A stretch of 64,000 nt of DNA from Thuidium tamariscinum. Lineage: Eukaryota; Streptophyta; Bryopsida; Hypnales; Thuidiaceae. Under the pieces are notes generated by a model that was not told where the DNA came from, did no database searches, and saw nothing but the letters and a program-made list of their open reading frames with translations. Numbering within the stretch: position 1 is the first letter of the stretch; the number at the start of each line of letters is the position of its first letter. The position numbers were made by a program, and so were the translations under genes. Positions 30,158-61,839 of the stretch are shown here, piece after piece. The stretch covers positions 6,207,001 to 6,271,000 of the forward strand of contig OX344754.2 of NCBI GenBank assembly GCA_947034885.2. Reading direction: 5' to 3'.

Positions 30158-33100
30158 TCAGACCAGCTCTCCAGCTTGCGATGGTACAGTTATGGCCAGT
30201 GCCTGAAGGTGCAAATCCTCAGCATTCTCTGGGGAAGGCTCGCTGGTCCTTGGAGTCTGCACTTGTTGAATCTTGTGCTGCTTGTAATGCCACTTACTCC
30301 TGAACTGCGAGTAAGGAAATTCAGGGGTCTGTGGAAGACCTTCGGTGCGTGACTCAGGGGTCTTCGTATTCTCGACCTCAGCCGGGAGAATTTCGGCGCT
30401 AGCTGTGGTCGTGGCCTGTGCCTCAGGGTGCGAATCCTCAGCATTCTTTGGAGAAGGCTCGCTGGTCCTTGAAGTCCGCGATTGTTGTATCCTGTGCTGC
30501 TTGTAATGCCACTTACTTCTGAACTGCAAGTGAGGGAACTCAGGACTCTGCGGATGGTGCGGAAGATCTTCGTTTCCAGGCTGAAGGCTTTTCGTATTAT
30601 CCACTTCTGTCGGAAGACCGTCGGGTATTATCGGAGGAGCAAGCTCACGGGACTTCGTCTGCAACTCAGGGAACTCGGGGCTCTGCGGACTGTGCGGAAG
30701 ACCTTCGGTGCCTGACTCAGGGGTCTTGGTATTATCCACTTCTGTCGGAAGACCGTCGGGTATCATCGGAGGAGCAGGCTCACAGGACTTCGTCTGCAGC
30801 TCAGGGAACTCAGGGCTCTGCGGAATGTGCGGAACTGACTCAGGGGTCTTCGTATTCTCGACCACAGCGGGGAGAATTTCGGCGCTAGCTCTGGTCCCAT
30901 CCAGTGCCTGAAGGTGCGAACCCTCAGCATTTGGAGAAGGCTCGCTGGTCCATGAAGTCTGCAAAATTTGTTGTGCCTTGTGCAGCTTGTTATGCCACTT
31001 ACTCGTGAACTGCAACTCAGGGCTCTGCGGATTGTGCGGAAGACCTTCGTGTCCTGATTCAGGGCTCTTCGTATTATCCACTTCTGTCGGAAGACCCTCG
31101 GGTATTATCGGAGGAGAAGGCTCACGGGACTTCGTCAGCAACTCAGGGAACTCAGGGCTCTGCGGATTGAGCGAAAGACCTTCGTTTCCTGGCTCAGAGC
31201 TCTTCGTATTATCCACTTCTGTCGGAAGACCGCCGGGTATTGTCGGAGGAGCAGGCTCAGGCTCACGGGACTTCGTCTGCAACTCAGGGAACTCAGGGCT
31301 CTGCGGATTGAGCGGAAGACCTTCGTTTCCTGGCTCAGGGCTCTTCGTATTATCCACTTCTGTCGGCAGACCCTCGGGTTCTATCGGAGGAGCAGGCTCA
31401 GGGGACTTGTTGTACTCATGATCCTCGTATCGTTTCGATCTTGACCTGAAAACAACACACAATGGAAGCTAAGATCGAGCCTTCATTTCTTGAACAAGCT
31501 AGACCATGCAATTGCATGTGATGACGAGGACGACAATGATTCACGAAGCACACTACAATGTACATTCGATCAGCTAGCACTAGTGCGGCTGTACCCTTCT
31601 CAGTGGTTGCAGAAATTACCTCGTCTGACCCCAAACCAATGGAGCCGGTGCAGTGACCAAAGGCTTACGCTTTGAGGGCCCAGCCACTGGAGAACGTGGG
31701 GTCCTTGGCCCAGTAGTAACCACTATACGCTTTGAGGGCCCAGCCACTGGAGAACATGGGGTCCTTGGTCCAGTAGTAACCACTATACGCTTCCCTTCAC
31801 TGCGCTTCTGCCGCTCCACTTTCAAAGCTGCAACACATTTCAATACATTGGGATTTGGGAATTTATTCTTTTCGAAAATCTAGTGAAGTCTAGATTTGAA
31901 GTATTGCAGACAGGAAATACGGAGCCTGTGGGAGACTAGGCCTAGGAAAAATAAAAACGAAAATGAAAATCACCGTGTTCCGCAGTGGGAACTGGGTCCT
32001 CCATTTCCTCATCGGAGCTCTCGGAGTCCTCACTGGACTCCTCATCAGTAGAAACTGGGTCTTCCATGTCCTCATCACGTTGCTCTCGCTTTCGAATCAC
32101 GTCTTCGAGATACTGGCGAAGTGATATTATGTTCTCCTGTGGTGGAACTACAGAAGGAATGTTCCCTCGGGCCCTTTCACGGGCCATGAATTTGCGCAGG
32201 CCTGGAAACATAAGTACTCGTTAGCAAGCGAGTGTCAGAAAAGTGCGTTGTGTAATCACATCTACCTCAAAACAAATTGATTTCCTTTCATACGTACTTA
32301 TGTATATAAATGTCTATTTAAGTTCACAACTTAATACTCATCGTCTAATCATGTACCCACATATCAACATATGATCATGACATGTAGCTTACATATTTTT
32401 AATAGAACTTGAATTAATGCTCCCTAGTGTCAATACATACACAATTTCAAATGAATACAGTATAACGCCAATTCATCATGTGAATGAAAGTCAGCTTACA
32501 TGGAGTGGGTTCCATTTTCGTGTATTTTGGCCTGCTTTCCTTCCTGAGGAGCTCTCCGAATTCTTCACAGGTGAGCATATCCCTCTGCAATCCGAAAGCC
32601 CGTCCAGAAGGTGTAAGCATATATTTAAGAATTGAAATGTGTGAATGTGACAATGTGTCTAACAGAAGTTAGCACTGACAGAATCAGTTATCGATTCAAT
32701 GCAATAAATTGGGTGTAATGTTGTTATATCAGTAATGCGTACCAGGATTTGGTCTTCGACGTAATCTTCCTCCTTGAAGTTGAGTTTGATGCTTCGAGGA
32801 TCCAAGGCATGAGGCTTGTATTTGAGGGCGGCACGGTCCTGCGCCCTGCAGGGAATGCATCGTGATTGTATTTATTTATTAGCACAATATCTTCTGCAAT
32901 TGCGACCTATTAGAACACATTTACAGAAAATTCACATGCACAATCCCAGGGCACAACCATGCTGACTGATTATTGAATGATGCACCAATATTCTTATTTC
33001 TCTTGCGGGAATAATTATCAGAAGTTTCTAAGATGATGCGACACTGAAAAACGGGGGAAATCATAGAATAGCAGCAACAGAGAATTGCTAATCAGTGGCA

Positions 33101-38343: not shown

Positions 38344-38795
38344 CCCCTAAATGCCCAAGGCATATTTTGAGCTTCTTGGAATTTGCTCTAAATTGAACAA
38401 AATGCCAACATTTTGATAAGTTCTATCAATTTTTTTTGAGTTGTAACCGTACAAATTCAAACTATACATGTTAGAAATTGCATAGGAAAAAAAAACAAAA
38501 CAATATCACTTATGGAGTGAAAGATTATAATGTTTGACGATAAGGGTGTTAAAATTACAAAAATGATCTAAAGTTTTTCTATCCTCTTTTTGCAAGTCAA
38601 AATTTGAAAAGTGAATGACCCCAAAAAGATGAAGTTAAAGGGCCTAACATGCATAACTCTAATCAATTTGTAGCTTCTCAAAATCTACTCTATAATTTTT
38701 GTAAATGAATTTTGAAGTGAGTTTTTCTCCAAGATCTAGTGTATTTGAGGCTCATTTTCAAGAGCTCTCAATACTATGGAAAGTCAAGATTACAA
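38344..38795 (-). mobile_element. piggyBac-like element, copy 3, truncated
   Basis: One end is CCCCTAAATGCCC next to TTAA (38340-38343). Read on the minus strand, the body aligns to about 3810-4260 of copy 1 through 'cttgac', 'tagtattga', 'ctcaaatacactagatcttgg' and 'atgttggc'. The other end is missing: similarity stops at about 38795, where the transposase-like reading frame begins. This may be a truncated insertion or a deletion junction. Confidence 0.6.
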
Positions 38796-39135
38796 TGGGT
38801 ACCCTGCATTCAAATTTCTCCAGAACTGTACTTGGATCTCGGTATCTTCAGAGTGCATGTCACATACTGCAATTGTCATTACCTTTTTGTACAGTGAATC
38901 GTACACATGGCACGCTATAGTGGTCCAGTCCTTCACGCGCTTTACGTGGTCAAACATCATCCACGCGTTCTGTAGATCCTCCTCAGGTTGCATACGCTTG
39001 ACGAGGTCGACTCCACTTCCAGGTCCTTCGGTAAGCATTTTGAATATATACACCTTCTCCTTCCCTTGACCTAGAAATACGCTATCATGGATGAATTCAA
39101 ATTTGGATTCTTTCTTCATAGTCATAATGTTGTTG

Positions 39136-40796
39136 CCCGGGGAGTGCACTCCCCATTTTTTAGATGTTAGCGTGCGAACAAATGAAGGGTATTTTTAATT
39201 GGGGCGACCTAAATTTTTGACAATTATTGAAAATAAATTAGCATGTCCATAAAGGGCAACTAGCCATTGTAAAAAAAGAAGGGTGCCTTATATTAGTAGA
39301 TTTTTTTTTCTATTTTTTTCTAAGGTAGCCCCCCTCCAAATCCCCTTCAAAAATCTAAATTTTTTAGGACTATACTTAAGAGAGTATAAATTGGTTTTAG
39401 GATACCAAGGTGGAATCCTATGTATGACAATGGTTTACAAGAATAACTGAGGGTACGTGCAGACCAAGCAATAAGGAGCAATAACGATGAGTTATGTACA
39501 GGAGCTATTGTAGTCAACGCAGCAAGACCGGAGGTCGATGAGGGTTGGTTCCGATGCTGTGCTTTCGACTTCCGTAAGGTAGGAGATATATCTTGCTACA
39601 GTGGCGTTCTTGATGTGGCCTCACGGAGTTAAGATATGGCGAAGCTAGTCCTTGTTTGCCGGGCTGCTTAAAGCGTATACTTTGTTATTGCGTTATTGCG
39701 TTATTGTTATAGCATATACTTTGTTATTGTGTTGTTGTTATTGCATATACTTTGTTATTGCGTTATTGCGTTATTGTTATAGCATATACTTTGTTATTGT
39801 GTTGTTGTTATTGCATATACTTTGTTATTGCGTTATTGCATATTGTGAATATTATATTGAGATAAATTCAAAACAAGCTGTAAGCTTCGATTGAAGATCC
39901 ATAAAATGCACTTCTAGGTCTAAATCCACTTTTGAATCTACATCCAAACATTGAAAAACTATTCGTTCTAAATTTTTTTAATATTGAGTTAAGAAATTAA
40001 TCCAACAAGTAATTTCTTAAAAACAATCACATCGTAATTTGCTCCAAAACAAGATGCTCCTTAAGCTACATCACTAATTCAAATGGAATGAATGAAAGCT
40101 ATGTTGAAAAAAAAAATCTTTAAGAGACTAATAAATTAATCATTCAAATATTAGAAGTTGTAAAAATTTAATTCAAAATAAAAAGTTAAACATAGAAAGT
40201 GTGCTTGAGGTGTGTTTGATGTAGACCTCAAGTACACCTCAAGTACACCTCAAGTACACTTTTATTTTTTACATTAAATTTAGTTTAAAGTACAAAAAGA
40301 AACAATCTGTTGAAGTAGACTCTTGCATTGTTTTGTCATTGCTTTTCATTAGTATTAAGGTAGGAGGTGTAGTAAGGAGTCCACTTGTTTCATGTATTGC
40401 ATTCACAAAATATTTTGAATCCAATTTTCTCACACCCAAAAAGTGATATGGAATTTAATAGACGTGGTTTCATATTTTTTTAAACATTTTTGGATTACTT
40501 ATGAATTTCCAAAGGCGCTAGGTTATAGGTTTGTATTTACAACTCTAGGTCTTGTATGAACCATTCACCTGCAGTTCTTGGAAAAAAATGTTGTATTTAT
40601 AATAAACATAGGGTATAAAGAATGAACACCCTAAAAAATTTCAACTAAAATATAGGGTATATGAAATAGGCAAGTTTTAGAAATTTAGGTAAAAAAAGCC
40701 CCCCATAAATTACAAAAACTTACCTAAATAGCCTACACATAATAGGGGCTTGTTCGCACGTGATCAACAGAGTTCCTAAATAGTGCACCCCCCGAG
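39136..40796 (+). mobile_element. 1.66-kb inverted-repeat element, copy 1
   Basis: The termini are CCCGGGGAGTGCAC and GTGCACCCCCCGAG, pairing with two mismatches; a weaker CGTGCGAACA block lies inside both ends. An 8-base duplication flanks it: TGTTGTTG at 39128-39135 and TGTTGTCG at 40797-40804 (one mismatch). It interrupts the transposase-like frame. Inside are a GC-richer block (about 39430-39670), a 70-base minisatellite built on 'tatactttgttattg' (39676, 39746, 39816) and three copies of 'acctcaagtaca' near 40230. There is no transposase. The 80-codon frame at 39652-39894 is minisatellite. The family is undetermined: 8-base targets fit hAT, P or MULE types. Confidence 0.92.
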
Positions 40797-40804
40797 TGTT
40801 GTCG
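40797..40804. other. Right target duplication of element copy 1
   Basis: TGTTGTCG; the left copy at 39128-39135 is TGTTGTTG. With the element and one copy taken away, the minus-strand frame reads on continuously (Val-Ile-Asp-Asn-Ile-Met), which supports this boundary. Confidence 0.85.
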
Positions 40805-42273
40805 ATGACACCTCCTCGATTGTTTGAGCGGAAAGAAGAGATGACGTTTCGTATGCTAGGACTAATTAGAACTTGGAAGCGGTCCATGACCTCTTCCATC
40901 TCATCTCCCTTGAGCATCTCTTTTTCTCCTTTTCCATAGTGAAAAAGATGGTTTGTCAAGAAGTCTTTGCTAGTAGACAAAGCTATACCAGAGTTTGTAG
41001 CTGTCGGAGTCTTGGCCACTTGTTTTGCAATGAGATTGCTAATTTCCTTTGCAGAGTCTCTATACATGCCTTTGGCTACTAGGTGAGTATGATTTCCAAA
41101 GTGGATAGCGGCTCTAGTCATTTTTGGGTTTTCACTATGGCAGTAGTACATCCTAGCATCACACATGCGAAGGCAAGTAGGTGTACTTTTGCAGACTTTG
41201 CAAACAAGCTTACAATCTTTAGGAGGACCTTGTCCAACTGCAAAAGGGAAAATGGTAGAACCGCTCCACTCTGTTTCATTATTTCTAGAAGCCCTCTTCA
41301 AGTACTCACAGTCACTATTCTCACAAACAAGATGACCAGCGCAGTAGGACTTACGGAACTTGAGTTGATCTGAGTTGTGGATGTTTGTTGTTACGAGCTT
41401 GCACCAAGGATGTCCGTCATAACGCTTGTCCATCCCCTCTAGGTTCTTTGCTGCGGAAGAAGAGGAAGAACATTGACACAGTGGCAATTCAAAGATGGCA
41501 TCCCCGTTGTATGTAGGTGGAAGAAACTCTACCTGATGATGTTTCATGCTAGCCAGATCCATAGTAGACAATTCATTCCTCGAGCGTTGAAGAGTAGAAA
41601 GCTTCTTCAAGCACTCCATTATACTCAAGCATTTGTTAGGATTTGATTGTAGCATAGGGTGACAGAATAAAGACTCTGCAATATTACTAGCTGAGGGTTC
41701 TGAGTCATTGTGAGTAGTTGGCTTCTCACTTGAAACACCCATAATAATGTAGGGTTTCTTTTCAAGAGATAAGGGTATAAAGTCTCCTTCTGAATCGCTA
41801 GATAGATCTACAATAGTGTCCATTTTTTCTATCTTCACTACAACAACATTTTCATTTCGAGAGAACATTGGCAAACGATCTTGACTATTACTTGGTGTAG
41901 GAGCCTCAACTACAAAGGGCATGTCTATTGTTGAGTTGACAGACTGGCGACTTCCTATTTCAACTGACGAAGGAAGCATTGGTAGAGGGAGACCATAGAC
42001 TCTGAAATTTCCCAAACCCGAATACCAACAGTGGTTTCCATTAGAGGCTGACTTCACAAGAGGAATAGATTGCTCTAATTCACCTGACTCAGAGTTCCTC
42101 TCTTCCTCAATGTAGATAGATGATTCAATGAACTTGAACCTCACATGAAGCAAGTGGCTGAAAACTGTAGCATACCCTCTCTCATCAAGCGGGAAGACCA
42201 AGGGAACCTCTTGACCATCAACACGTATGGAAGCCATGTTTCTATCAATAGACCAATCCACCTCAATACACAA

Positions 42274-43107
42274 AAGAGAGACTTAGTTGGAAGTACTTAG
42301 TATTTGTAAACATGAGGTTGTACTGTAGAATTTAAGCGCCACTTACTATTATTGTCTAGTGGGACAGAAATTATGGAACTCATTATTTCCATTGATATGC
42401 TTATTGACGGTAGGTTTTATCCTTTTACTCCGTACTTTCATAACTAAGGGTGTCTCTTACAAAGATTTCAAAATGATATAGTTTTTTCGGTATTTCATTA
42501 GTCATAACTCATAAAGATAGTGCATTAAATTCTAAAACCCTGGTATCTTATAAGCGTGCTTACATTAAAGATTTAGGCTGCGTATATTACTTATTTAGTA
42601 CTGTCCTTCTACTAGTAAGACATTTGGGACTTCAATTGCACATTCATATACTAATTATTTGCTTTGGATTCTATGCTCCAGAATTGATCTAAGTTGGATG
42701 TGTTCAAAAGGAGGTGGCACGCATGAAGAGGACAATGTCAGATTTCAAACGATACTATCAAATCTCCGTTGCGATCTAAATTGACGGCACATTTATAATG
42801 CCACCTAACTCAACTATTTTTGAAATATCGGGCACAGTGCCTGGCAGAGCTACGTAGTACTACATGTGAAAATGCAACGTTACAATCTAAGAAGTACTTA
42901 TCTTCTTCTCCGACTAGAAGTGTTCATTTGAAGTTATCTTCTTGAGTCTCTTGGAGGTAGTTTAAGAAGGGAGGTTTAGGTATATATTCTTAGAGCTCAG
43001 ACTTTTAGAAGACGAGCCTTCTTTGCTTGAAAACTCATTGCTGATTCTAGAAGACAGGAATAGTTTACTTCGTTTCTTCTTCTTATAGAGTTGTTAGTAG
43101 GTTAAGG
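42274..43107. promoter_or_regulatory. Divergent intergenic region between transposase-like and ParB-methyltransferase genes
   Basis: The start codons of two genes face away from each other across this 834-base gap. This suggests a shared or back-to-back promoter, a layout known from two-gene DNA transposons. No confident TATA box can be singled out in the AT-rich sequence. A 'ttactccgtactt' block at 42424 resembles a lone MITE end but has no partner. Confidence 0.45.
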
Positions 43108-44999
43108 ATGAAACAAGGCAAGAGGGCTGCGTCGAAGTCGAGCGATTCTGGAGTTGCTGAAACTCGAAAGTCTCTTCGATTTGAAGAAGAAGCTAGTGGC
43201 GAGCCCATGGATGTTGAGCGCAATGAATCAGAGGGGCTGCGTAAGGATAGTCAACAACTCGCTGGCGACCACCAAGTGCCGGCTACAAATGACAATCCAA
43301 GTGTAAGCATCTTGCAGCCCATTCCAGATTGTTTACCTTATATTCAATATAAATCTTGCAGGAATGAACTTCAATTTAGGGGTAATACAAGGGCCCATGT
43401 ATTCTCTCTTTCAATTTAGTTAAACTCAGTATAGTATTCATGAGTGATTACTCTATAGTGCTTAGAAAAACACAGTATGAAATCAATCGATATAGTATAG
43501 ATGTAGGAGTACCCAAGGCCATTTTGAGTGTGATAAGGAGTAAATATATTACTATTTCTATATTTCAGTAGACTGTAACCACAGTCAATTGTATCTCTTC
43601 AAAATGAAGGTAACATTCAGTGCATGAATAAGGAAACATGTAGAATACTCTTCAATCCTACTCCGTTCTTATGTGCGTAGCAACAACTGCATATATTATA
43701 GAAGTGAATGGTACTGAACTTGCAAATGCAACTACAATGAGGCAGACTCTATTGTACCACCATTCAATAAGGATATTTACAAAGGAAGCTTAGGGTTTTG
43801 TTCCAAATACCTATGGGTTTATTTTAAATTCAAAACTTATGTTGGGCTTCCATTTGCAAATTTGTATGACATTGCAAAGCTTTTCCATTGAAATTTCAGT
43901 AGGAAAATAATATTTAAGATCCTTTGCCTTGCACTTTGTTGTTTCTATTATTTCATGTGTTATCAGTCTTTTAAGATAATAAAATTTAATATTCATATTT
44001 ACATAGTCGTGCTTCATGCAACAAAGGCTTATAAAGTAGGGGGCTGTAATTGTGACCTTGTTTCAAAAAGGAATTTGGTAGGTTTTGCCTCTAACATGTA
44101 CCAAAAGTGAACATTTCAAGAGGGGGTCACTTTTAGAAACCACTGTGTCTTGAACTTCATAAATTCAGAATAAACTCCATGAAGGTCAAAAAAGCATTGA
44201 AGGAGTTCGGTTTGAAGCCAATTCCATTTTTCTTAACTTAAAAATTCACTAAAAATAGAATCAAGAAATTTAGCTTCCCTAAGTGCAAATCAAGTAGTAA
44301 TTGGTAAAGGGTCACTCTTACATCCCCCTATCTTATTTATCTCTTTTTTTTTAAACAAATAGACAATTTCACCTTATATTTTTCATAAAACTACTTGAGA
44401 CTCACAACATGAAATAGAGACAAACAAAACTAAAAGGCAAAGAAGCGCAACATATGAGAAAGCAGGCGACAAATTGAAATTACTTTACCAACGTACTAGC
44501 TTCATAAGCCGAAAAGATGATGAGTGTAAGAAGAAAAGTCATACTCATCTTCTTGCAAAGTGCAAAAGCACAGTGTACTCGATTCGCCATATCTGTCATG
44601 ATCTATGGCCAGCACAAGAATCGATAACCCAGAAAGTGGTCAACTTCCATAGAGCCTTGAATATAGACAGACCAGATAATCTTGGCAGTGTCAGGGACTA
44701 ATCTACGTTGAACTCGGTGTCTCGGTCACTTATTTAAATCGACATGCTCTTTGTATTGCGAAATTTCCGTAACTTCACCTTATTGAATGCATGTTTGCAT
44801 GCTCTGACCGTTAGTAAGCTCGAGCAAAAAGAATATCATAAATCTATATAGCGAGGAATTAGAGTCTTAATTTTTCAAGGTTAACCCCGCTCATTTCTCT
44901 GAGTTGAAAAGCAAATCAACCAATCCAAGTAAAGGCATGAGATACGCATGGACATGACTAGTGTAGACTGAAATTATTCAATATCCAAATACGGATTAC

Positions 45000-45520
45000 G
45001 GGTGGAGATCCCAGAGGATATTACGCCAGAAAGCAAGGAAGAAGGCCTAGCGCACCGCTCTGAAGTTTGAACTCACCTGAGCGATTTCAGTGGTGGCCGA
45101 TTCCTCTCGAATTTCGAGGATGAGGGGAATTTCAAGCGGACTTTCCGCTTCCCTGACAACTGATTCCTCTTGTTCTCATTCTCAAATGAGCTCGAGCGGA
45201 TCTTCCCTGTGGCTCTCCGGATTTCGTGGAGGTCATCGTCTCCGTGCCGAGTTCACTCATGAGCTTCCAGCTTCTCGATCAATCAGAGGATACCTGCGCA
45301 ATTCTCTTAGTATGCGCAATGAGCACATTTGATCTTCCTTTTTGTACCTGACAGTGGAAACACTTGTCCTCGTAGAGCTAGTCAAATATGGCGCGACACA
45401 CGCGTGCTCGAGCAAAGGAAGCTTTGGTCGAGTCTGCTGCAGCGACATAACCTCCAGAACTGGATCAAGACACAGCAATGGAGGTTTGAATCTAAACCTC
45501 GATTCTCTTGAATTCCCTAT
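45000..45520 (-). other. GC-richer segment inside intron 1, possible captured gene fragment
   Basis: On the minus strand, an interval ending in a GT site near 45077 has an open, Lys/Arg/Ser-rich frame (KIRSSSFENENKRNQLSGK, then KFERNRPPLKSL) directly after an in-frame stop, bounded upstream by an AG at about 45293. Next to it is another AG/GT-bounded stretch near 45350-45450. This looks like exons of an unrelated gene carried inside the ParB-methyltransferase intron, but no family is recognised and the plus strand is open too. Confidence 0.3.
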
Positions 45521-45589
45521 CTAGCAAACGGAAGACCATTGCATTGTGAGAACATCAAGTTGATTTGATAGTACTTGATGTCGTCCGTT

Positions 45590-45765
45590 TCTTCTGGTGA
45601 CGCGCGCTGGTGACACGCACGTGGCGTGGCGTAGCCAGCGCGTTTAGTTGTCTGGTGCGCTTGGCTCGGGTCGCGCGTGAGTGTTGGTGTTGAGCGTGCG
45701 GGCGTGGCGCGTCGTGTGCGTGGGGGCATGGCGCGGCGCGCGCGCTGGTGGTGTGCCTACTTCTC
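45590..45765. repeat. CpG-rich GCGTGG/GCGC low-complexity tract
   Basis: About 175 bases dominated by short permutations of 'gcgtggcg', 'gcgcgc' and 'ggtg', far richer in CpG than its surroundings. Arg/Ala-rich open frames on both strands are composition artefacts. It immediately precedes the first of the four hairpin units. Confidence 0.6.
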
Positions 45766-45779
45766 AACACCTCCTTTTC

Positions 45780-46920
45780 TGGGGTACCACGGCCGTCGCG
45801 CGCGGACTCCGTCGGATCCGATGGGGTCACCACGTTGGGCTCGTGGTACCCTCAGAAACTATATGTTGAGAATTTTTTCTCTCGATGAGATATTCTCCCA
45901 CCGATTCCGCTGGTGTGGATATTGACCAAAAACTGAATGAATGGAGTTTGTTTTTGATCATTTCTCCACACATCCAGAGACCGTGGTATCATTGACTGCT
46001 AACAGTCTCTCTTTTATCAAGATTCAGTCCTCTGGAGACTGAGTTTTGGGGAGCTCTTTCGGATTACTAGGACTGTGTAAAGCATGAGAAAGTCTCGTGA
46101 AGTTATCGGAATCCCATTCGTCGAAGGTCTGTCATCCAATTTCACGCGTATGCGGTGCTTGGGAATTCTTTAGCACATGGGTTTTGGGAGTACCGTGACC
46201 TCATCCTCGGAAGGCTATCAGATCCGACGGACATTCCACGGAGGGATCACGGTACCCCAAAAAAGCACATGCCGAATTCACTTTTTCTAATTTCTCCACG
46301 CAACCAGTGACCGTAGTATCAACAGTCTCCTTTGTTGAAGTGCAGCCTTCTAAAGACTGAGTTTTGCGGAGCTCTTTCAGGTTTGTAGGATTGTATAAAG
46401 CATGAGAAAGACTCAAGAAGGTGTAGAAGCCCATTCGTCGAAGATGTGGCCCTCCAGTCGACCAGTCCTTCACGCATCTGAGTATCTTGGAATTCCTCAG
46501 CAGGTGGTTTTTTGGAGTACCGCGACCTCACCCTCCGGAGGCCGTCGAATCCGACGGACATTCCACGATGGGATCGCGGTACCCCAGAAATCCATACACT
46601 GAGGATTCCTCACTTCAATGAGCAATTTGCCTTTGTTATGAATTGATCAAAAAACTGATCTCCTTGCATATGTTCGGAAGCCAAGTTTTTTGATTTGTTG
46701 ACACATCTTGTGACTCGGATCCTCCGAATTAGTCTATATAGCGGAGATTCCTGTTTGTTTTGACCTGAAGCGCTTGTTTAGGTACAAATCACTTAACTGC
46801 AAGGAAAAAACGGATCAATGTCTCACAACATGTAGGAAAATGGGGTAGCACGACTCACCCATTGGAACCCCATCGGATCCGACGGGTATTTTGCCAACAG
46901 GTCGTGCTACCCCCATTTTT
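45780..46920. repeat. Four spaced hairpin units with GTACC...GGTAC arms
   Basis: Imperfect palindromes of about 70-75 bases lie at 45783-45852, 46191-46256, 46516-46583 and 46844-46915. Arms are GTACCACG/CGTGGTAC, GTACCGTGA/TCACGGTAC, GTACCGCGA/TCGCGGTAC and GGGGTAGCACGA/TCGTGCTACCCC. Arm substitutions are matched by compensating changes on the other side. Each centre holds a variant of GTCGGATCCGA or ATCCGACGG. The stretches after the first two units (45853-46190 and 46257-46515) are also diverged copies of each other ('gagttttg.ggagctctttc', 'cccattcgtcgaag'). Confidence 0.75.
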
Positions 46921-49900
46921 ACTATGTCGAGATCTCTCCTCTATGAAACTGACTTTCGTTTGAGTTTTGGTGGGAGGCAAGTGTTTGGTCTTCGTCTTCA
47001 CGTTTGGAATATTAATCTTTCTTTTGAGACTTCAGATTGTGAATATGATCATCAGAATGATTTCATTCAAACGAGAAGAGTAACTTTGTTTACATTTTTA
47101 GATGATTGAACTTTTTTGTAACTTCCGAGTTTCAACGTCTGTGAGATTCAGTTTCTTGAGATTAATTAACATCCCTAAACGGGTTTTGTTTTACTTATGA
47201 CGGTCCTGTCTTAAGTAGACCCTAAACTGAATGTTGGGTCCTTTTGTGTGAGCCTCTTTGATCCATACTGATATTGTTTGCTATGCTTTCAAATATTCCA
47301 GGTTTCCAACGTTCGAATTGGGTTTGTAGGAAGAGCTCAGTCAAACCTTGATGAGGTAAAGGTCATACAATGACTTCCATTTGAAATTCATCATTGAGTT
47401 TGCTTTAATTATTAGTGTTGTCACATTTCGGCATGTGGACCTCCTCATTGTTTCTTAATTGCCACATGATTTCTATTTCTTACCATAATTAACTCTCATT
47501 TATAATGAATGTCCTTTGTCATTGGTAATCATTTCCTTGCCATAATCGCTCTCAAAGATTTTGAACGTTGAAAATTTGCCTTAAGATTTTTTTAAATGTG
47601 TATTGTCTTATAAATTCTCTTGAATCTCATTGGTATTTTTCTTTCCATGAATTGATTTTAAACTTCATATTTGGGAATCATTACCTCTTTAGGATGGACG
47701 ACACAAAGGCAAGCATCTTAAGATTTCTTCCTCTGAGATTCAAGCCCCAAGAGAGCAGACTTTTCCAGCTCTGGATATTGGGGGACCATTCCAGAAGAAG
47801 AAGTGGCCTCAGCTTGGCATGCCCATACCAAATGACTCTAGTGATGATGAGAGAAATTTGGTGAGTTTCAGTGATATCATGGATGCTGCAGAGCGTGCAG
47901 CAAATGACTTTGAGGGAGATAGGCTTAGTTGGAATCGTGGACCTGGTCCTTGGTTCTCATCTGAGAGCTCTAAGACGGAATACTCCTCAGTTGTAGAGCT
48001 CTCAAATGCTAGCTCTAGTCCTCCTTTTGAGGAGTTACATGAATCGTATCGTACTAGAAAAGTTTATTCTTACCAGGTTATCATATTGAGCTCAGATTCC
48101 GAGGAGGAGGATGTTGACATCATAGAGTGAGATTGATATCTCTAGAATCAAGTTTCCTAGTGATATTTCATTTTTGACTTAATACTCTAAAGCCTAAAGG
48201 GTTGATTTTGATCAACATTCTCAATGGTCTACTATTTTCCAAGTGTTATTACATATTCTAAGTAAATTTTTTCAAAGTGTATTTTGAATTCAAATTATAT
48301 TTCAAGGCTCCTTGCTTATGATTGTTTTTATTGCAGATTGATGTGTCGCCTTTTAAAGAAACTCAAGAGGAGACCATCATAGAAACGCCAGGCACAGATG
48401 AGACACGTCAACCATATATTGAGGGAAGAGAAAGATTCAAATATGGAGGTCAAGTAGAGGAAGGAGATGAGGCTATGCAAATTGATATTTTTGAAGATGA
48501 AGAAAAGAAGAAAATGCTTGAGGACGAGCTCCGTCGTGTTCAAAAAGGAGACTCAGTGGATATTCTTTCCACTCTCCGTATGGAACCAGATGAGCTTTAT
48601 AGGTTGAAAATTCCCCTCTGCAGACTTGTTGCTATGCCCATGGTCAGGCCTACATTGTCTTGCGATATTACCAAATTGGAGCAAGAGTTTGCTGGTGATA
48701 TAGAGATGGTGCAGCATCCTTTTATGTTTCCACCACAGATGAAGAAGGATACAGCTCAGAATTCACGGAGGATGAGATGGCGAAGTGGGATCCAATTTGG
48801 AGAGAGAAGAATGATGTGTTTCTCCGGCACCTAGAGTCCAAACCCGAGTTCCGATCCTTGAAGAACTTGAAGAACTTGAAGTTCTTCATATGTGACAGAA
48901 ATCATCGTCGCATTGCATGGATGAATCTTATTGACAGGTGCTATACCCTGATTCCAAAGATGCATTGTATCGTGGATTGCATTCTACTGGACACAAAAGG
49001 GCGAACAGAGCTAGTGATGCAAGTGATGCATCACATCAACAAGTGAGTTTTTTTTATTTATTTGTTTATTTGATTATAAATGTGTTGTGTTGTTTCATAA
49101 AGTATCTAATGTATGGCTAGAAGCTCATTATAATAAATGTGGTTGATGTTTTGCAGATCTATTGAGGATTCTCATGTCAAGATTAACTTGGTACACACTT
49201 TGTACCAAGTGCAAAAGTATGGACTCTTGCCCATTGAACGGTTTGCTGATTTATTAAGGCCTTCAGAGAAGAAACGGTGCCTTAAGAACAAGGTTTCAAG
49301 GAAATGGTATAGCATACCGATGGAGGTCTTCACCTCATTCATTTTCAGGGAAAGTTTCTTTGTTTTTTGAGCCTTCATCATCTTCCAAAGTAGCATCTTT
49401 TTTTAATATTGTCATGACTAATTTAAATATGTGGATGGTATTACAGCATGAGATTTTTCAAACTGCAGACTCTGCAGTGAGAAAGTATACAGATGCAACA
49501 CCTGAGGATGATAGGAAGGCAGCAAAGATTGCCCATGCCATGAAATCTCGAGCAAAAGAAAAAATTAAAGTCATGATGGTGAATATGGGGAAACTCTTGG
49601 TAGTGGTTCATCCTTCTAATGGTCCAGGCTTCTTAGAAGAGGTGAGTTAAGTTCAAAGGTTTGCATGTCTATGCTTCTGGTTTTCTGTACTTTGATAATT
49701 AACTAAATTGTGGAGGATTGTTGGTTAGGTGGAGCAGCATTGGAGCACAAACGAGGTTCCGGAAATGACGTTGGAGAAGCTACAGTTGGTGGCCACGTGC
49801 AATGTGACTGCAGCACACAAGATTAAAATCTTGAAGTGGTAGAATTCGTCTCTTCCAACTCGTGAAGCACGCAAGTTTCCACCCAAGCCTGTTTCAGAAC

Positions 49901-51855
49901 TTCTTCTTCCCCAATTTCTTGCAAAATGCGTTTGGTATGCGGAGGTGAGTGATGAATTTTACAAATTTATATTTTTTTTCCTCCTTCATTGGTATTGAAT
50001 ATTTCATGATGACTTTTGAAGTAAGTTTTAGAAATATTATAGTTTGAATTCTAATATTTTCCTAGGTTTTTCAGATTGAAGATGCGGCCATTGAGTACTT
50101 TGATGGAGTGGTGAAGCAAGACAACATTATGGTCAACTTGAAGCTCCCAACTAAACTTGAGTATTTGCCTGACTACATTGAGGGGTGGAGGTGCAAGATA
50201 TGGGATCATGGCTTCTTGAATTATTTCAAGGGCCATAATTATTTCAAGAAGGGAGATTTTTTCATAGTGTATGAAGGTTCAGCTGCTGCAGTGCGAAGAG
50301 TTCTTTATCAGTAAGTACCATGAACTAATTGTTATAGGTAAAAAAATTCTAAAGGTTTTGTATATCTCTAATGACTTATGAATTCAATCTATAAGTTTTT
50401 ATGTATACAATTATACAAATCATCACTACTTTCTGTGAGGTATTTTATATTAGGCAAAATGGACGTCCAAACACCTCTAAATCCTTACTTGTACATCATT
50501 AAGGTTTAGAAGATGTGGGCTTCAATAATCTATAGTAATGCTATTTTGGGGGAGAATTCTTTTTCCTCTTTGATATTTGTATTGCTTCTATTATTGTGAA
50601 AAGTTGTGACTAGGTAGACAATAGTAATTTTCCATTGTAATGTATTCTTGTAGTTGTATTTGCATTATGAAAATTATCCCTTATGAATTTCTATGGTTGT
50701 GTTTCAGGTATTTCAAGTTCAAGCTTGAAGGCAAAGGAGCAATAGCTAGCTTGGATCTTCCCCCATTTTTGGCATCATATCTTGATCGGGGTTCAACGGC
50801 TTGCATGTTTAGCCCGCACCAACTCCGCACTTATACCACGGCTCATCTTTCTGGTGGGGGATGGTACTTGGACTGTACACTCAATTTCACTCATCTTTCA
50901 AAGATTGAGCTTAGGAGATCTTTGGACGGCAAAGGGGTTGTCAATTGCAACATTGATGAGTTTGACGGCCTTGATCAGAATGCAAGGAAGAAGGCCATTA
51001 TGAGGAGGGATGCACTTGATCGAAAGAAGGAAGCTCGAGCCCAAGTTATGTTGGAAAACAAGGAAAAGAAGGAGGCTGAGAGAGCGGCCAAGAAAGTACA
51101 GAAGGACAAGGAAGAGAAAGGTAAGGGCAAGGGCAAGAAGAAGGACACTGGTACTGGTAAGGTACCATCTTCCACTATAGATCAAGGTTCTGAGATGGAG
51201 AGCAAAATGAAACAAAAACTCACGCTATCACAACTCACTGAGGAGGTCATCTGTCACGTCACACAAGCAATGGTCTTGACCGAAGATGTTGCAGCAAAGA
51301 CTGAGGATTTGATCCTCAACGTCTCCATTCAAGACATTGTGAACGACATGGAGGAAGACAAACCAACTTCTTACAATGAGGTGGTGAATTTCATGGAGAA
51401 AGTGACTATTTTCATCTTAATTGTTCTAATTTCTTTATTTGACCCTCAAATTTTGTTATCTTGTTGATGTTCATGATTAACTTTTAGTTGCATTGCATGT
51501 TTTGCAGATGTCAAATGGAAAGGCTCGCATGTTTGAGGGTGTGCTAAATGCCCGAGCAGGGGTTGATGTCATTTTCCTTGATTGCTTGGAGAACTTACCC
51601 GTGCTAGGGCTCTCTTCTTCGCCAACCGATGTACCACTCTGGAACTCAGATCCACAAGATGAGGCATTGCAATCAGCAGGTAGCTTTGTTGTAGAACATT
51701 TGCATGATGATGGTTGCATCATCATCTTTCACTCGTATAGTATGAAGACAAGGGACAACATTGTTGGAGTGTGTGAGACGTACGATTTGGTACAGAAGAA
51801 AGAGTGGATGGAGATGAATCGCATGCACCTCACCTCCGCAGTAGAGAAGACTAAG

Positions 51856-52590
51856 GGGTGATTGCAAGAAACACCTGTCCTATTTGTTGCGTTTTCCACA
51901 GTACTCATGAATTTCTTTAGGAGTACTATTTGAATAGAAAAATAATTTTTAAAAAATATAAAAAATATGAATTATGTATATACCTTTAAAATGAAGGTTT
52001 TCACCAAAGGAAATTCATAGAAAAATTCTCTAAGTAGGAGAACTTGAAAAGTGCCAAATCTCAAGAAAATTGGCAGTTTGATTCAAAAATTCTTTAAAAA
52101 TAATAAAATAAGCAAAATTCACAAAGTGAAAACAATCCATTTGAAAGAACTTTAAGGAGAAGTTCAATCACCAAAATTTTTATGAAAATAATATTTTATA
52201 TGTTTCAAAATGCAAGCAGAAGGGAGCTCACTTTGTGGACTTCCACACTACATAGAATTAATTATTTTTGAAAATACTCTTCTGAAAAGTTGTATTTCTA
52301 TATAAGGAACAACTCTATATAATTTTCTTGATGTACATTTTCAAAAAAGGTACTCAATAGTACTAAAAACCTCCAAAACCGCAAGTGTGACATCCATTTC
52401 AAGCCTATTTTTGGATAGTATACTATTTTTGAAAATTACCAAAAAAATTAAAGAAGTTGTATGATAGTCATGAGTACCTTCCCTAGATATCTCAAGTCAT
52501 TTGGAGTTAAAACACAAAAGTTATGGCCAAAAAACAAATCAACCTGCAACGTGTGACACAAAATAGGACAGGTGTTTCTTGCAATCACCC
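51856..52590. mobile_element. PIF/Harbinger-like MITE in methyltransferase exon 10
   Basis: The ends GGGTGATTGCAAGAAACACC and its exact reverse complement pair, and pairing extends to about 34 bases in all. TAAG lies on both sides (51852-51855 and 52591-52594). A three-base TAA target and a GGG-type terminus fit PIF/Harbinger-derived MITEs; a four-base TAAG target cannot be excluded. It has no open frame. It lies in coding sequence: after the right TAAG only ACG remains before the GT of the splice donor at 52598. A diverged relative is at 27895-28467. Confidence 0.85.
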
Positions 52591-53879
52591 TAAGACGGTA
52601 CATTCCTTCAAATCTTTTGGTTTTCATTATATAATTATAGTGCAATCTATTCAATGCATTTTAATGCACATTTGATGTCCATACTGCAAACACAGAAGTT
52701 TGGAGTGACTCTACTTGTGAAGGACCTTGGTTTCAAAGGAAAATCCAAATTTTCCTTCACGCGGACCAGCACTATGGCAAAGGCTGGGGTTGATGTTACA
52801 GAGGATGACATGGCAATGAATGGGGAGTGGCCTTGGAGAGGAGGACGCGAAAAAGATCCAAGGTTCTTCACCATCTTCCTCGAAGCGACTAGCATTGAAG
52901 GAGATTTGATTTTGAATTGCACCGCATCTACATGTTAGTGTTTAAATCAAATCTTTTACATTCCAATAGTATTTCAAAGTCACTCAATCACAAAATAATT
53001 AAATAAAAATTTCATTGACTTCAGGTGCATGCATTACGGCATGTCGTGGCACTGGACGCCACATTGTAGCTTTGGAGGGGCACAAAGACATTTTCAATAC
53101 TATTCTGAAGCCAATGAAGAAGTCACAAGCATCTATGGTCGAAAAAACCAACGCCAGCACCTGTAGTTAAGGTTTCAGAAGACTTAGAGGATATGCCTGT
53201 GGTGCCTCGCAAATTTGTTCGCAAGGGGAAATCTAGTAAGTAAGTTGACAATAAAATAAGTTCTTTGTTTGCATTCTAATGTACATTTGTGTTTCAAAAT
53301 CCTAACTTCATGTTGTTATTTTCTACAGGGATCGTGGATTGATGGCCCCTAATGCCATCATGTCAAAGCAAAGTCTTCTCATCAATCCACATAAGTCTCT
53401 TGAGCTTCCAGTTTATGCTGAGCAATTGGCAAGTGCCTTTGCGGAGTTTGGTTGTTCTAAACCAAAACACTGCAAAGACACCTATGCTTTAAATATCTTG
53501 TAGTATGTAGATGTGTCTGCATCTGAGGGTAGGAAATCCTCTGAGTCATCTATGGGTTCTGATTCCGTAACCGGGTCGACATCAACTTAGATTCATGAGA
53601 TGGACGAATCTCTTGAATCAAACTATTGTGTTTTGTTTTTTTTATGATTGGATTTGTGTGTTTTATGGCTACTTTTTGGACGTCCCTTCATCTCTTTTCA
53701 TTTTTGAATTGCTTAATTTCTCTCAAAAAATTGTACTTGAATTCCACCCAAAAATAAATTTAAAAAATATAAATGCACACCTCACATTTGCTAGCGAATA
53801 AACAAAAATTGAAATTAAGAAATCATATGGGTGTTACAAAGGACTATAAAAGCGCAAGTTAGAAAAAGTACCTTATTCA

Positions 53880-54165
53880 TATTAAGCACCCTAAACCCCT
53901 CCCAAAAAATGGAGAGTGCAATTAAAATTGAGCACACCCTAAATCTTTAGGAAAATAAATGGGGACTGAATTAAAAGTTCACCACAAAAAAGGCTCTACA
54001 AAAGAAATGGGGAGTGAATTTAAAGTTCACCACCCAAAAAGTCAAACCTTAAAAAAATGGGGAGTGAAATTAAAGTTCACCTGAAAGAAAGTCTCTATGA
54101 AAAAAATGGGGAATGATTTAAAGTTCACCCAAAGAAAATACCTACTACAAAAATGGAGAATGAAA
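53880..54165 (+). repeat. Imperfect tandem repeat with ATGGGGAGTG core
   Basis: Five to six units of about 45-60 bases share 'aaatgggga(g/c)tgaatt' followed by 'aaagttcacc' (cores near 53908, 53957, 54008, 54056, 54107). The core resembles the outer end of the 1.66-kb elements, 'aaaaaatggggagtgcac'. The array starts less than 300 bases after the methyltransferase stop codon, so it may be the subterminal repeat of the element that carried the gene. Confidence 0.7.
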
Positions 54166-54499
54166 TAGAAATCATTTCCTTTGAAATATTATCCCCTTGA
54201 ATGTGAGAGCCAAAAAATATCACATGTAGGTCTAAAGCATAATCAATTGGCTAGCTTTGGGGTTTTAAAGATTAGTCATATGAAATTCGGAAACAAAACT
54301 TCTTACAATGAATTGAAGGTGTTCTACAACAAATTCAAAAACAATGAACAATCAAGCGGCATACAATGTATGTTTCTGTAACCACGGTCATAGGACCTTC
54401 ATCGATTTTTTAGAATTTTTTTTTCCTGCTCACAAGCTCCTAGGCTTCCAAGCTCACGCTCCTACACTCGCCTGCTAGCAACCCTGCACAGAAGTCAAG
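54166..54499. other. Spacer between repeat array and copia fossil
   Basis: A short mixed sequence with a 66-codon open frame at 54181-54381 that has no recognised motif. The 5' boundary of the copia fossil lies somewhere here but is not defined. Confidence 0.4.
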
Positions 54500-56330
54500 C
54501 TAATGACAACATGTATTACATGCACCAAGGGAAAAAAACCATTATTTTACTTCTATACGTTGATGATTTGTTCATTACTGGTAGCTTAGATCGTCTCATC
54601 ACCTGGCTGAAACAATTCCTACATAAGGAATTTGAAATGACTGATTTAGGCAAAATTCAACGTTTCATGGGTATCTCCTTCGAGTAGGTTGCAATTAGCA
54701 TATTTTTATATCAACGGGATTATTCAAAATCAATTTTAACCGATTTTGGCATATCGAATGCAAGTCCACTTTTACCCCTCTTCTTGAAGGCCAACTGCTC
54801 ACAACCGACATAAAATTGTCCTTCATCAACTCTATATACTATTGCCAGTTAATTGAAAAATTAATATTCCTCATTATCACTCGTCTCGACCTTGCCTACG
54901 CTATGAGTCGCCTTAGCAATTATATAGTAAATCTTCAGCAAACGCATTTTGAAGCAGCCAAGCATGTTTTGAGATACTTACAAGGCACTCTTGATCACAG
55001 GTTCCTTTTCCATGCTAACGCTCCTCTCACCATTTCTGGCTTCATAGATGCTGACCGTGGATCCTATGCAGAGACTTGCCGGAGTCGCCGCTCTATGGGC
55101 GCCTACATCTTTACACTTGTTGGTAGCCCTGTTATTTGGCAAAGCAAACGTCAATTAACAGTCTCTCATTTTTTTACAAAGTCCGAATATAGAGCTTTGA
55201 ATGATAGAGTGCAAGAAGCTGTTTGACTTCACCGACTACTACAAGAACTAAAGCCACCTCTATCAACGTCACCAAGTTCTTGCCAGTCTACTCTAAATAC
55301 TACTGCGCCTAGAATCACACTTTATTGCGACAATCAAGGCGCCATGAAGCTTGCCCACAACCCCGTTTTCCATGCTAAATCAAAACATATTGAAATTCAT
55401 TACCATTTTATTAGAGAGAGGGTTTTAGAAGGGGAAATTTGATTACATTACATTCACACAACTGAGCAACCTAAAAATGCTCTTACAAAGCCGCTTGATC
55501 GGGTGAAATTCACTCAACATAGACTCAAATTAGGAATACATAGTCTAGCTAATTTCAAACCTACGTAGCCAACTTCACAGATTAGTAACTGCCCCAAACC
55601 CTAGAATTTTGGCGTTTGGAATAGGTATTCTTCTGCATCTACTAGAGAACTAAAGCTTCTATACTCTGCCCCTTTGAACCCTGTTACCTCTTGCGAACAA
55701 TCACTCCACGAGAAGTATAGGCATGGAATTCACCCACGACGTACCACATAAAATTTTTGTTTCCCTCCTTTTACCTCGTAAAGACCTCAGCAAACTTCTC
55801 GTGCCTGCGGACCTGCCGAAGAAGCGACCTCGATTGGCTTGATCGTCGCTACATGCTTCGGAGAAAATTTTCCATACGGCAATCTCGTTTTCACGAACGT
55901 TGTCCTACTCCTCTGCACTGATGGTCTCACAACACCAACTCATCACATGCGCCACGAACGCACACCACAACCACAACAACAGTCTTACGAATCCGGAAAT
56001 TGAAACTCCACCAATACTCTCTTGTAGCAGTTGTACCCTACGACTTCTCACATGTACCATCTTTTCACTCTCACAAACTTCTCATGCACTCTTTCAGAAT
56101 ACTCATCAATCTTTCAATTGAGGGAAGGTGTTGGCATTTTAGGATTTCATCGTGTATTATTCTACTAATTAGATATCATTCATTCTCTTAGCACTAAGTG
56201 CTCAGAGCTTAGTATTTAAGTTTAGCTTAGTTCCTGCTTTGTATCTCATTCTCTTATGATCATATTATTGATATCAACACTGTAAATTTATACTATTGTA
56301 AGTTCTAATAGCTTTGACTTCATGGGTTTT
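54500..56330 (+). mobile_element. Ty1/copia retrotransposon fossil, 3' part only
   Basis: The end of a reverse transcriptase (YVDD-type box near 54555), the connecting RNase H region (about 54880-55430) and the pol C-terminus are recognisable, in the order and strand of a Ty1/copia element. A purine tract near 56118-56129 followed by TGTTGG marks the likely start of the 3' LTR, with a TATA-like TATTTAAG near 56211; the LTR end is not clear. gag, protease, integrase and the 5' LTR are absent. The coding part is broken in several places, so it is an old, inactive copy that landed beside the methyltransferase remnant. Confidence 0.85.
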
Positions 56331-60171: not shown

Positions 60172-60179
60172 ACTTTGGA

Positions 60180-61839
60180 CTCGGGGGGTGCACTATTTAG
60201 GAACTCTGTTGATCACGTGCGAACAAGCCCCTATTATGTGTAGGCTATTTAAGTAAGTTTTTGTAATTTATGGGGGGCTTTTTTTACCTAAATTTCTAAA
60301 ACTTGCCTATTTCATATACCCTATATTTTAGTTGAAATTTTTTAGGGTGTTCATTCTTTATACCCTATGTTTATTATAAATACAACATTTTTTTCCAAGA
60401 ACTGCAGGTGAATGGTTCATACAAGACCTAGAGTTGTAAATACAAACCTATAACCTAGCGCCTTTGGAAATTCATAAGTAATCCAAAAATGTTTAAAAAA
60501 ATATGAAACCACGTCTATTAAATTCCATATCACTTTTTGGGTGTGAGAAAATTGGATTCAAAATATTTTGTGAATGCAATACATGAAACAAGTGGACTCC
60601 TTACTACACCTCCTACCTTAATACTAATGAAAAGCAATGACAAAACAATGCAAGAGTCTACTTCAACAGATTGTTTCTTTTTGTACTTTAAACTAAATTT
60701 AATGTAAAAAATAAAAGTGTACTTGAGGTGTACTTGAGGTGTACTTGAGGTCTACATCAAACACACCTCAAGCACACTTTCTATGTTTAACTTTTTATTT
60801 TGAATTAAATTTTTACAACTTCTAATATTTGAATGATTAATTTATTAGTCTCTTAAAGATTTTTTTTTTCAACATAGCTTTCATTCATTCCATTTGAATT
60901 AGTGATGTAGCTTAAGGAGCATCTTGTTTTGGAGCAAATTACGATGTGATTGTTTTTAAGAAATTACTTGTTGGATTAATTTCTTAACTCAATATTAAAA
61001 AAATTTAGAACGAATAGTTTTTCAATGTTTGGATGTAGATTCAAAAGTGGATTTAGACCTAGAAGTGCATTTTATGGATCTTCAATCGAAGCTTACAGCT
61101 TGTTTTGAATTTATCTCAATATAATATTCACAATATGCAATAACGCAATAACAAAGTATATGCAATAACAACAACACAATAACAAAGTATATGCTATAAC
61201 AATAACGCAATAACGCAATAACAAAGTATATGCAATAACAACAACACAATAACAAAGTATATGCTATAACAATAACGCAATAACGCAATAACAAAGTATA
61301 CGCTTTAAGCAGCCCGGCAAACAAGGACTAGCTTCGCCATATCTTAACTCCGTGAGGCCACATCAAGAACGCCACTGTAGCAAGATATATCTCCTACCTT
61401 ACGGAAGTCGAAAGCACAGCATCGGAACCAACCCTCATCGACCTCCGGTCTTGCTGCGTTGACTACAATAGCTCCTGTACATAACTCATCGTTATTGCTC
61501 CTTATTGCTTGGTCTGCACGTACCCTCAGTTATTCTTGTAAACCATTGTCATACATAGGATTCCACCTTGGTATCCTAAAACCAATTTATACTCTCTTAA
61601 GTATAGTCCTAAAAAATTTAGATTTTTGAAGGGGATTTGGAGGGGGGCTACCTTAGAAAAAAATAGAAAAAAAATCTACTAATATAAGGCACCCTTCTTT
61701 TTTTACAATGGCTAGTTGCCCTTTATGGACATGCTAATTTATTTTCAATAATTGTCAAAAATTTAGGTCGCCCCAATTAAAAATACCCTTCATTTGTTCG
61801 CACGCTAACATCTAAAAAATGGGGAGTGCACTCCCCGGG
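60180..61839 (-). mobile_element. 1.66-kb inverted-repeat element, copy 2
   Basis: Nearly identical, in opposite orientation, to 39136-40796. In the parts I compared I found one substitution (40724) and one homopolymer length change. The ends are CTCGGGGGGTGCAC and GTGCACTCCCCGGG. ACTTTGGA is duplicated exactly at 60172-60179 and 61840-61847. Because it has its own target duplication, it is a separate insertion and not the far arm of one giant element. The 80-codon frame inside has the same translation as in copy 1 and comes from the minisatellite. Confidence 0.95.

Follow-up and report, generated by a model that had tools for sequence, protein, structure and literature searches.

The giant DNA transposon Sola1-1_Ec32 of the brown alga Ectocarpus is 21.5 kb long and carries, on the strand opposite its transposase gene, an accessory gene for a protein of 1104 amino acids (aa) that combines a ParB-like domain with an N4-cytosine/N6-adenine methyltransferase domain (PMC12477816). 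The sections of that paper drawn on here also mention 'similar proteins' in green and red algal transposons, cited to Iyer et al. 2011 and Petroll et al. 2025, and giant red algal EnSpm elements that bear accessory genes; these EnSpm elements may be the red algal carriers of ParB-methyltransferase proteins. As far as those sections go, the pairing of a ParB-methyltransferase gene with a transposase is already known from algal DNA transposons. Excerpts of two further papers describe fungal DNA transposons that carry TET/JBP genes, a second gene of a DNA-modifying enzyme family (PMC12730594), and dinoflagellate and charophyte retrotransposons with captured cytosine methyltransferases (PMC5890265). 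Here we describe a 64,000-nucleotide stretch of the genome of the moss Thuidium tamariscinum (C6:6207001-6271000, hereafter the window), where a DNA transposon copy, decayed and truncated on the left, occupies 38805-54486. Its family carries two genes in divergent orientation.

We regard it as very probable that the window copy is a dead member of a large two-gene transposon family of the cut-and-paste type, which is active in this genome now or was so recently. A sequence-only reading of the window had already proposed one such element, with a transposase and a ParB-methyltransferase gene, and had matched it to no named plant transposon family; since the pair is published for algal DNA transposons in the source above, its novelty was overstated. 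In the open-licence literature searched, no report of the pair in mosses or with a Mutator-like transposase was found, and an earlier mention of mosses in the two primary algal papers is possible. The genome searched comprises 363 Mb in 19 contigs (C1, C2 and so on). It belongs to a photosynthetic host, with 49 matches to the chlorophyll a/b-binding family, and one of its Lhcb proteins fits a moss: in the Protein Data Bank, multi-domain chains of 9vfj score highest (516 and 464 bits), and the top single-domain rows are 8htu and 7xqp (about 436 bits), which are Physcomitrium entries, the remaining rows reaching at most 428 bits. The transposase query gave 86 scored matches out of 825 candidates and the query with the ParB-like exon of the second gene gave 150 out of 628, and all gene counts below are among these listed matches.

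Ends, copy number and gene pairing of the intact element

Intact relatives of about 15.8 kb are present in the same genome. The reference, copy A (L038, L028, L037 and L042), occupies C11:16199834 to 16215591, which is 15,758 bp counting the terminal G, and copy B (L043, L029 and L044) lies on the same contig. Their identity is 99.6% across 1964 bp of the left end and 97.0% across 705 columns of the right end. The element ends read CAACGACGCTAGCG on the left and GCTAGCAACCCTG on the right, the opposite-strand end of copy A reading CAGGGTTGCTAGCA, and they show inverted similarity to each other (CAACGACGCTAGCG / CAGGGTTGCTAGC), in repeats that are short (~13 bp) and imperfect. Copies A and B are both flanked by 10-bp target duplications. 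In ten further elements, picked for having both ends and with the flanks alone fetched, all ten target duplications are exact, nine of 10 bp and one of 9 bp. The family thus has the fixed ends with inverted similarity and the target duplication of constant length that characterize cut-and-paste (terminal inverted repeat) DNA transposons, and the near-identity of copies together with perfect target duplications points to recent mobility.

Genome-wide, the right-end motif GCTAGCAACCCTG occurs 235 times and the left-end motif CAACGACGCTAGCG 185 times, with one occurrence of the reversed control in each case, suggesting about two hundred whole or partial copies, several of them seen to be intact. 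To follow end pairing, all 100 listed right ends, which run from C1 into C6, were set against 83 of the 100 listed left ends, the other 17 (3 on C6 and 14 on C7) being kept out. A listed right end stands on the same strand 0.5-35 kb from 48 of the 83 left ends; 33 of these 48 paired-end stretches measure 14.5-17.4 kb, and two left ends on C1 use one right end. At least 19 of the 48 contain both genes, always in opposite orientation, 13 contain one and 16 contain no listed match, gene contents here being lower bounds. Contig C11, which at 17.5 Mb makes up 4.8% of the genome, has 24 of the 86 transposase matches and 46 of the 150 ParB-like exon matches, and may represent a sex chromosome or some other chromosome rich in elements. 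At the low end of L041, a copy on C7 apparently sits in the SWIM-encoding exon of another family copy, a self-nesting read by eye from the flank.

Copy A has ten occurrences of the sequence GTGAGC, and eight of these fall within its terminal 150-bp stretches, pointing inward at both ends. One or both of the element's proteins would most plausibly bind at these repeats; most likely, the transposase would do so.

The two genes recur as a divergent pair. Of the 86 transposase matches, 70 have a ParB-like exon 4.6-10.8 kb upstream in opposite orientation, compared with a mean of 0.5 and a maximum of 3 in 200 position shuffles (in which the sizes of C8 and C9 are approximate). This genome-wide recurrence argues that the pairing in the window is not due to chance, and chance adjacency is ruled out by it together with the end-defined stretches that hold both genes. 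The proposal of one two-gene transposon is thereby borne out, the same divergent order recurring inside shared ends, and so is the expectation that relatives of the two genes co-occur elsewhere. The sequence-only reading had also named, as a contrary outcome, a conserved single-copy host gene; on this point the result goes only as far as this genome, where the second gene is multicopy (150 scored matches). Beside three ParB-like exons with 60% identity to the query stand two long transposase frames of the same family, at 68% (L071) and 65% (L072), and a fragment at 51% (L073).

Several counts weigh against so regular a pairing. Five close pairs (≤15 kb) are otherwise arranged, three downstream on the opposite strand and two upstream on the same strand; 16 of the 86 transposase matches and 80 of the 150 ParB-like matches lack a listed partner (the other 70 of the 150 have one); and, the match lists giving lower bounds, 16 of the 48 paired ends enclose no listed match of either gene. 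The unpaired transposases include the window copy, the ParB-like exon of which is frameshifted.

Selection on the two genes was estimated as the ratio of nonsynonymous to synonymous substitution rates (dN/dS) by the NG86 method, each value coming from one pair of sequences and dS being about 1 or more in most exons. For the C11 subfamily compared with that of C7, dN/dS is 0.133 over 1096 codons of the second gene, 0.159 in its methyltransferase exons, 0.093 in exon 9, and 0.148 in transposase exon 1; transposase exon 2 gives 0.060 (copy A against copy L071, both on C11). Both genes are under purifying selection, and the second gene is kept as strictly as the transposase. Exon 12 of the second gene has a low dS of 0.33, a hint of conversion or recent exchange near the right end.

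Layout and decay of the window copy

The sequence-only reading placed the element at 38793-54165. The location stands, whereas the bounds do not: the right end is at 54486 and the alignable left limit at 38805, the DNA alignment to copy A ending at 38806. The left end, the final 132 residues of transposase exon 1, and the whole of exon 2 including its SWIM-like zinc finger were not found left of 38805 in the window. Two divergent genes, as reported, are present, the transposase-like gene starting at 42237 (-) and the first exon of the second gene at about 43108 (+). In DNA alignment, transposase parts match copy A at 38806-39133 and 40797-42304, and the second gene and right end match it at 43073-43226, 47691-51867, 52656-53683 and 54301-54486. 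Identities by tblastn are 75% and 89% for the transposase pieces and 51-76% for those of the second gene, and the 5' part of the transposase has 93% protein identity to a copy on C3. The features of the copy are as follows (ORF, open reading frame).

38805-39134, - strand: transposase-like gene, continuation of exon 1; residues 480-589, with VYDSLYKK and CDMHSED; tblastn 89%; copy truncated here
39136-40797, + strand: nested non-autonomous DNA element of 1662 bp in the transposase gene, which it splits
40798-42237, - strand: transposase-like gene, 5' part of exon 1; open, residues 1-481 of the intact protein, with a zinc-finger-like Cys/His module; tblastn 75% to copy A
42238-43107, no strand: shared intergenic region between the divergent gene starts
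43108-43226, + strand: second gene, predicted first exon (start MKQGKRAASKSSDSG...); 73% DNA match to copy A at 43073-43226; ORF 43051-43419
43227-47690, no strand: large first intron, repeat-bearing, differing among subfamilies; no blastn match to copy A
47691-48130, + strand: second gene, exon 2; acidic, with SUMO-interaction-like motif VIILSSDSEEED; ORF and DNA alignment
48337-49043, + strand: second gene, ParB-like exon (IPLCRLVAMPMVRPTL ... ICDRNHRRIAWMN); tblastn 66-70%; ORFs 48322-48834 and 48699-49046
49140-51407, + strand: second gene, exons 4-8 in its middle part; conserved, without an assigned domain; tblastn, exon structure from L037
51505-51855, + strand: second gene, exon 9, with the region of methyltransferase motif IV (DCLENLP, 51580-51600) and one resembling motif V; tblastn 76%
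51856-52590, no strand: small nested element within an intron of the second gene, its inverted ends perfect over 30 bp and flanked by TAA
52654-53590, + strand: second gene, exons 10-12; methyltransferase motifs X and I and C-terminus; tblastn 69% and 51%
53952-54164, no strand: 48-bp tandem repeat in the 3' non-coding part; repeat search
54474-54486, - strand: right terminus, CAGGGTTGCTAGC; terminal motif match

The decay and nested insertions noticed earlier are confirmed: the 1662-bp element splits the transposase gene, the element at 51856-52590 sits in an intron, and the ParB-like exon is frameshifted near 48697, upstream of its motif at 48891-48911. Within the first intron, the stretch 44000-46000 is matched by relatives on C2, C3, C4 and C6.

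The 1662-bp element has a 99.9% identical inverted twin at 60179-61839, internal 70-bp tandem repeats, and many relatives genome-wide. Its flanking repeat matches at seven of eight bases at 39136-40797 and at eight of eight (TCCAAAGT) at the twin, and this separate flanking of each copy, together with their near-identity, suggests recent local transposition. One short element has inserted twice here. The alternative of a long terminal inverted repeat over the whole region is ruled out, each copy being separately flanked and its relatives scattered genome-wide. The element at 51856-52590, to which the sequence at 27905-28468 is related, we take to be PIF/Harbinger-like from its inverted ends and TAA flanks.

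A stop-ridden segment at 27071-27313, 37% similar to the SWIM-like transposase end, has diverged too far to represent the missing left end and is perhaps a much older relative of the transposase. Beyond the right terminus, the flank from 54487 resembles a Copia-like reverse transcriptase (ORF 54394-54687, read by eye). At 30158-31462 (-), a 434-aa open frame of GC-rich, proline-rich tandem repeats (TEVDNTKSPEPG...) stands amid AT-rich surroundings.

The two proteins and alternative explanations

In copy A, exons 3-12 of the second gene join at GT-AG sites into 1104 aa, with two more 5' exons predicted. About 250 residues in the C-terminal part are methyltransferase-like in beta order (motif order IV ... 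X, I). Specifically, an hhalign comparison of three subfamilies with five phage methyltransferases gives a probability of 96.3 and an E value of 2e-9 over motifs X-I, compared with 1.2 for a plasmid RepB control. An hmmsearch of the Protein Data Bank (PDB) retrieves 5hfj (E 7e-4) and 5hek (E 8e-4), both named adenine-specific there, and CcrM 6pbd (E 0.016), followed by an N4-cytosine enzyme at 0.54. Motifs IV and I are colinear with those of 5hfj and CcrM 6pbd, DCPENLP being aligned to DPPYN[IL]. Furthermore, the domain is matched by the PHROG DNA methyltransferase profile (E 3e-4) and the NCBIfam CcrM profile (E 0.0018), while Pfam PF01555 stays below cut-off (E 0.026). A phage search with the methyltransferase part returned 208 records at E values up to 10, the best being weak at about 1e-3; all 15 listed records carry a methylase or methyltransferase annotation, and the matched gene in four fetched phage regions is a separate methyltransferase gene. 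The beta-order motifs recognized by the sequence-only reading are thus corroborated by the hhalign score and the colinear PDB motifs, and the second protein, as far as these comparisons indicate, carries a methyltransferase-like domain of the beta class (N6-adenine/N4-cytosine).

An objection to methylation comes from the catalytic motif. Motif IV mostly reads DC[P/Q/L/H]ENLP instead of DPPY, and the aromatic position holds E in 92 of 100 listed matches (195 matches in all) and K in 4, D in 2 and C in 2, with no Y, F or W, in a search whose pattern fixed D-C and N-[LF]-P-V and so could not return copies with classic DPPY or another second residue. Read directly, the motif is DCPE or DCQE in three subfamilies, DCLE in the window and NCPK in the decayed relative L040. 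The catalytic pattern [DNS]PP[YFW] is therefore absent from the 100 listed matches and from the three subfamilies, and the altered motif makes catalysis doubtful. Motif I is altered as well, with DCTASTG in the family instead of DPF.GSG (LNCTASTC in the window copy compared with LDCTASTG in the family).

The second protein may accordingly be a catalytically dead methyltransferase fold that binds only element DNA or S-adenosylmethionine, in an anti-silencing or end-bridging role, without methylating anything, a view to which we give nearly an even chance. It would explain why motif IV, in the three subfamilies and the 100 listed pattern matches, has neither the P nor the aromatic residue of DPPY, why its region is still strongly constrained (exon 9), and why motif I is changed. 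It is harder to square with motif I and motif X regions that methyltransferase profiles still match, and with the retention of the motif IV Asp and the next Asn (of DPPYN), as expected if the chemistry matters. Because the catalytic motif is altered, methylation by the second protein appears unlikely, though with a chance that is far from negligible.

The ParB-like part is defined by motifs. The core VRPTL...CDGNHRR of the exon is conserved in the family alignment, the window having CDRNHRR where the family mostly has CDGNHRR (L057 also has CDRNHRR), and we set it beside the GxxR-type ParB/Srx active-site motif after a P-x-R segment, a template that we assume to apply. The profile evidence speaks against the identification: the module has no ParB match in Pfam, NCBIfam or the PDB; hhalign to two plasmid RepB proteins gives a probability of 2%; and the exon finds nothing among phages and four weak, unrelated matches among plasmids. 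Its AlphaFold model, with a predicted local distance difference test (pLDDT) score of 36, is too poor to judge the fold. No giant-virus or phage source for the exon was found, the giant-virus side being covered with two short peptide patterns only. From the motifs, we infer a ParB-like identity.

By sequence reading, SUMO-interaction-like motifs occur in both proteins (TIVDLSSDSEGEF in the N-terminal part of the transposase, VIILSSDSEEED in L037 and at 47691-48130 of the window), as do VKVEK/VKIEK stretches in element proteins. The SUMO-interaction-like motifs could link the element proteins to host chromatin factors.

The intact transposase-like protein has ~1183 aa in two exons (721 aa and 462 aa). 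Read against templates that we take to represent Mutator-like elements (MULEs), it shows a Cys/His-rich module, a VYD...FMADS...C..H-like stretch, SETIHNKWL, and a CTC...CKH SWIM-like C-terminus. The C-terminal CTCPDF...NCKH pattern gives the sole Pfam result for the full protein, PF04434 (SWIM), at an E value of 8.9, below cut-off. The 9-10 bp target duplication falls within the 8-11 bp of MULEs. The protein thus resembles MULE transposases in motifs and target-duplication length, which make membership plausible and leave it unproven. The profile searches tell against membership: PF10551 (MULE) has no match at E values up to 10 in the full transposase or in 21 members, and the 70 genomic places it finds (35 over cut-off) are all more than 5 kb from the listed matches of both genes, the closest approach being 5.3 kb to a ParB-like match on C4, by a place below cut-off, and 19.7 kb to a transposase match on C11. 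The AlphaFold model of the transposase core (mean pLDDT 43) is too poor to judge the fold. Neither the 'ParB' nor the 'MULE' label of the sequence-only reading is thus backed by a profile match.

That the transposase belongs to a superfamily of its own, so far undescribed and making 9-10 bp target duplications, is a minority view that we nevertheless take seriously. The silence of the MULE profile in the 21 members, the distance of all its genomic places, and the imperfect ~13-bp end repeats fit it. The KDZ profile (PF18758) found no match genome-wide, with control genomes equally silent, and none in the full-protein Pfam scan. The length of the duplications, the CxC...CxH SWIM-like C-terminal finger (sub-threshold, as above), and the SExxHNxxL-like motif in exon 2 and C..H-like motif after FMADS, both judged by templates we presume valid, draw the protein back towards MULEs.

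That the second gene is a captured passenger, a Pack-MULE-like host gene fragment with no function for the element, is very improbable and was rejected. MULE-type elements do carry pieces of host genes (Pack-MULEs are cited in the sections of PMC12477816 drawn on here), but purifying selection extends across dS above 1, the multi-exon structure is common to both subfamilies compared, and one arrangement recurs in 70 of the 86 transposase matches. Two separate elements lying side by side in the window, as frequent nested insertions and the missing left end might suggest, would have to yield 70 divergent pairs where shuffles average 0.5 and at least 19 of 48 end-defined stretches with both genes always in opposite orientation, and can be set aside almost entirely.

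Proposed function and comparison with known systems

We propose that gene 1 encodes a Mutator-like transposase of the DDE type, which would insert the element with a 9-10 bp stagger. Gene 2, divergent from the shared intergenic region, would encode an accessory protein of more than 1100 aa in which a ParB-like module precedes a beta-order methyltransferase-fold module, and this protein would most likely recognise the element's own DNA. It may either mark the element by N6-adenine or N4-cytosine methylation or, with its altered catalytic motif, hold or shield element DNA without methylating it; in either case the element could escape host silencing, or its ends could be made ready for transposition. 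The DNA recognition or marking that the sequence-only reading gave to the second protein is a putative role, and the catalytic motif is non-canonical in the copies seen. The bolder version, in which a recently mobile land-plant transposon encodes an adenine or N4-cytosine marking enzyme with the new motif DCxENLP and labels its own copies or the GTGAGC repeats for transposition or escape from silencing, we consider unlikely.

Should the second protein mark DNA, about two hundred copies of a self-labelling transposon would reside in a land plant, the disputed question of N6-methyladenine (6mA) and N4-methylcytosine (4mC) in plant genomes would become testable at defined loci, and plants would have an epigenetic mark supplied by a transposon and distinct from the cytosine methylation of the host. 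If it is a dead enzyme under selection, it would represent a new type of transposon accessory factor.

Plant MULEs share with this family the 9-10 bp target duplications, a candidate SWIM-like C-terminal finger and the possession of a second gene, which is common in MULEs (MuDR, VANDAL); unlike them, the element here has no PF10551 match and short, imperfect ends, and its second gene appears unlike mudrB or VANC. Fungal TET/JBP transposons differ, as their source is excerpted here, in encoding dioxygenases that act on methylcytosine, whereas the fold here is that of a methyltransferase. The dinoflagellate and charophyte cases, within the portion of the report used, concern C5-cytosine enzymes in retrotransposons, in contrast to a beta-class N6/N4 fold in a DNA transposon.

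The algal ParB-methyltransferase transposons, compared by description in the cited sections, agree in architecture and live in other hosts. In particular, Sola1-1_Ec32, as described there, likewise has an accessory gene of the ParB-methyltransferase type opposite the transposase in a large DNA transposon, the ParB part being assigned here by motif only; it differs in its Sola-1 transposase, whereas the moss element has 9-10 bp duplications, a SWIM-like finger, a land-plant host, about 200 end motifs and several intact copies. The occurrence of the methyltransferase-like gene beside different kinds of transposase (Sola-1, further algal transposons according to the literature, and the present one) suggests repeated recruitment or swapping between families. 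Apparently new here are the land-plant host, the different transposase, a high copy number with intact copies, measured selection, and an altered motif IV.

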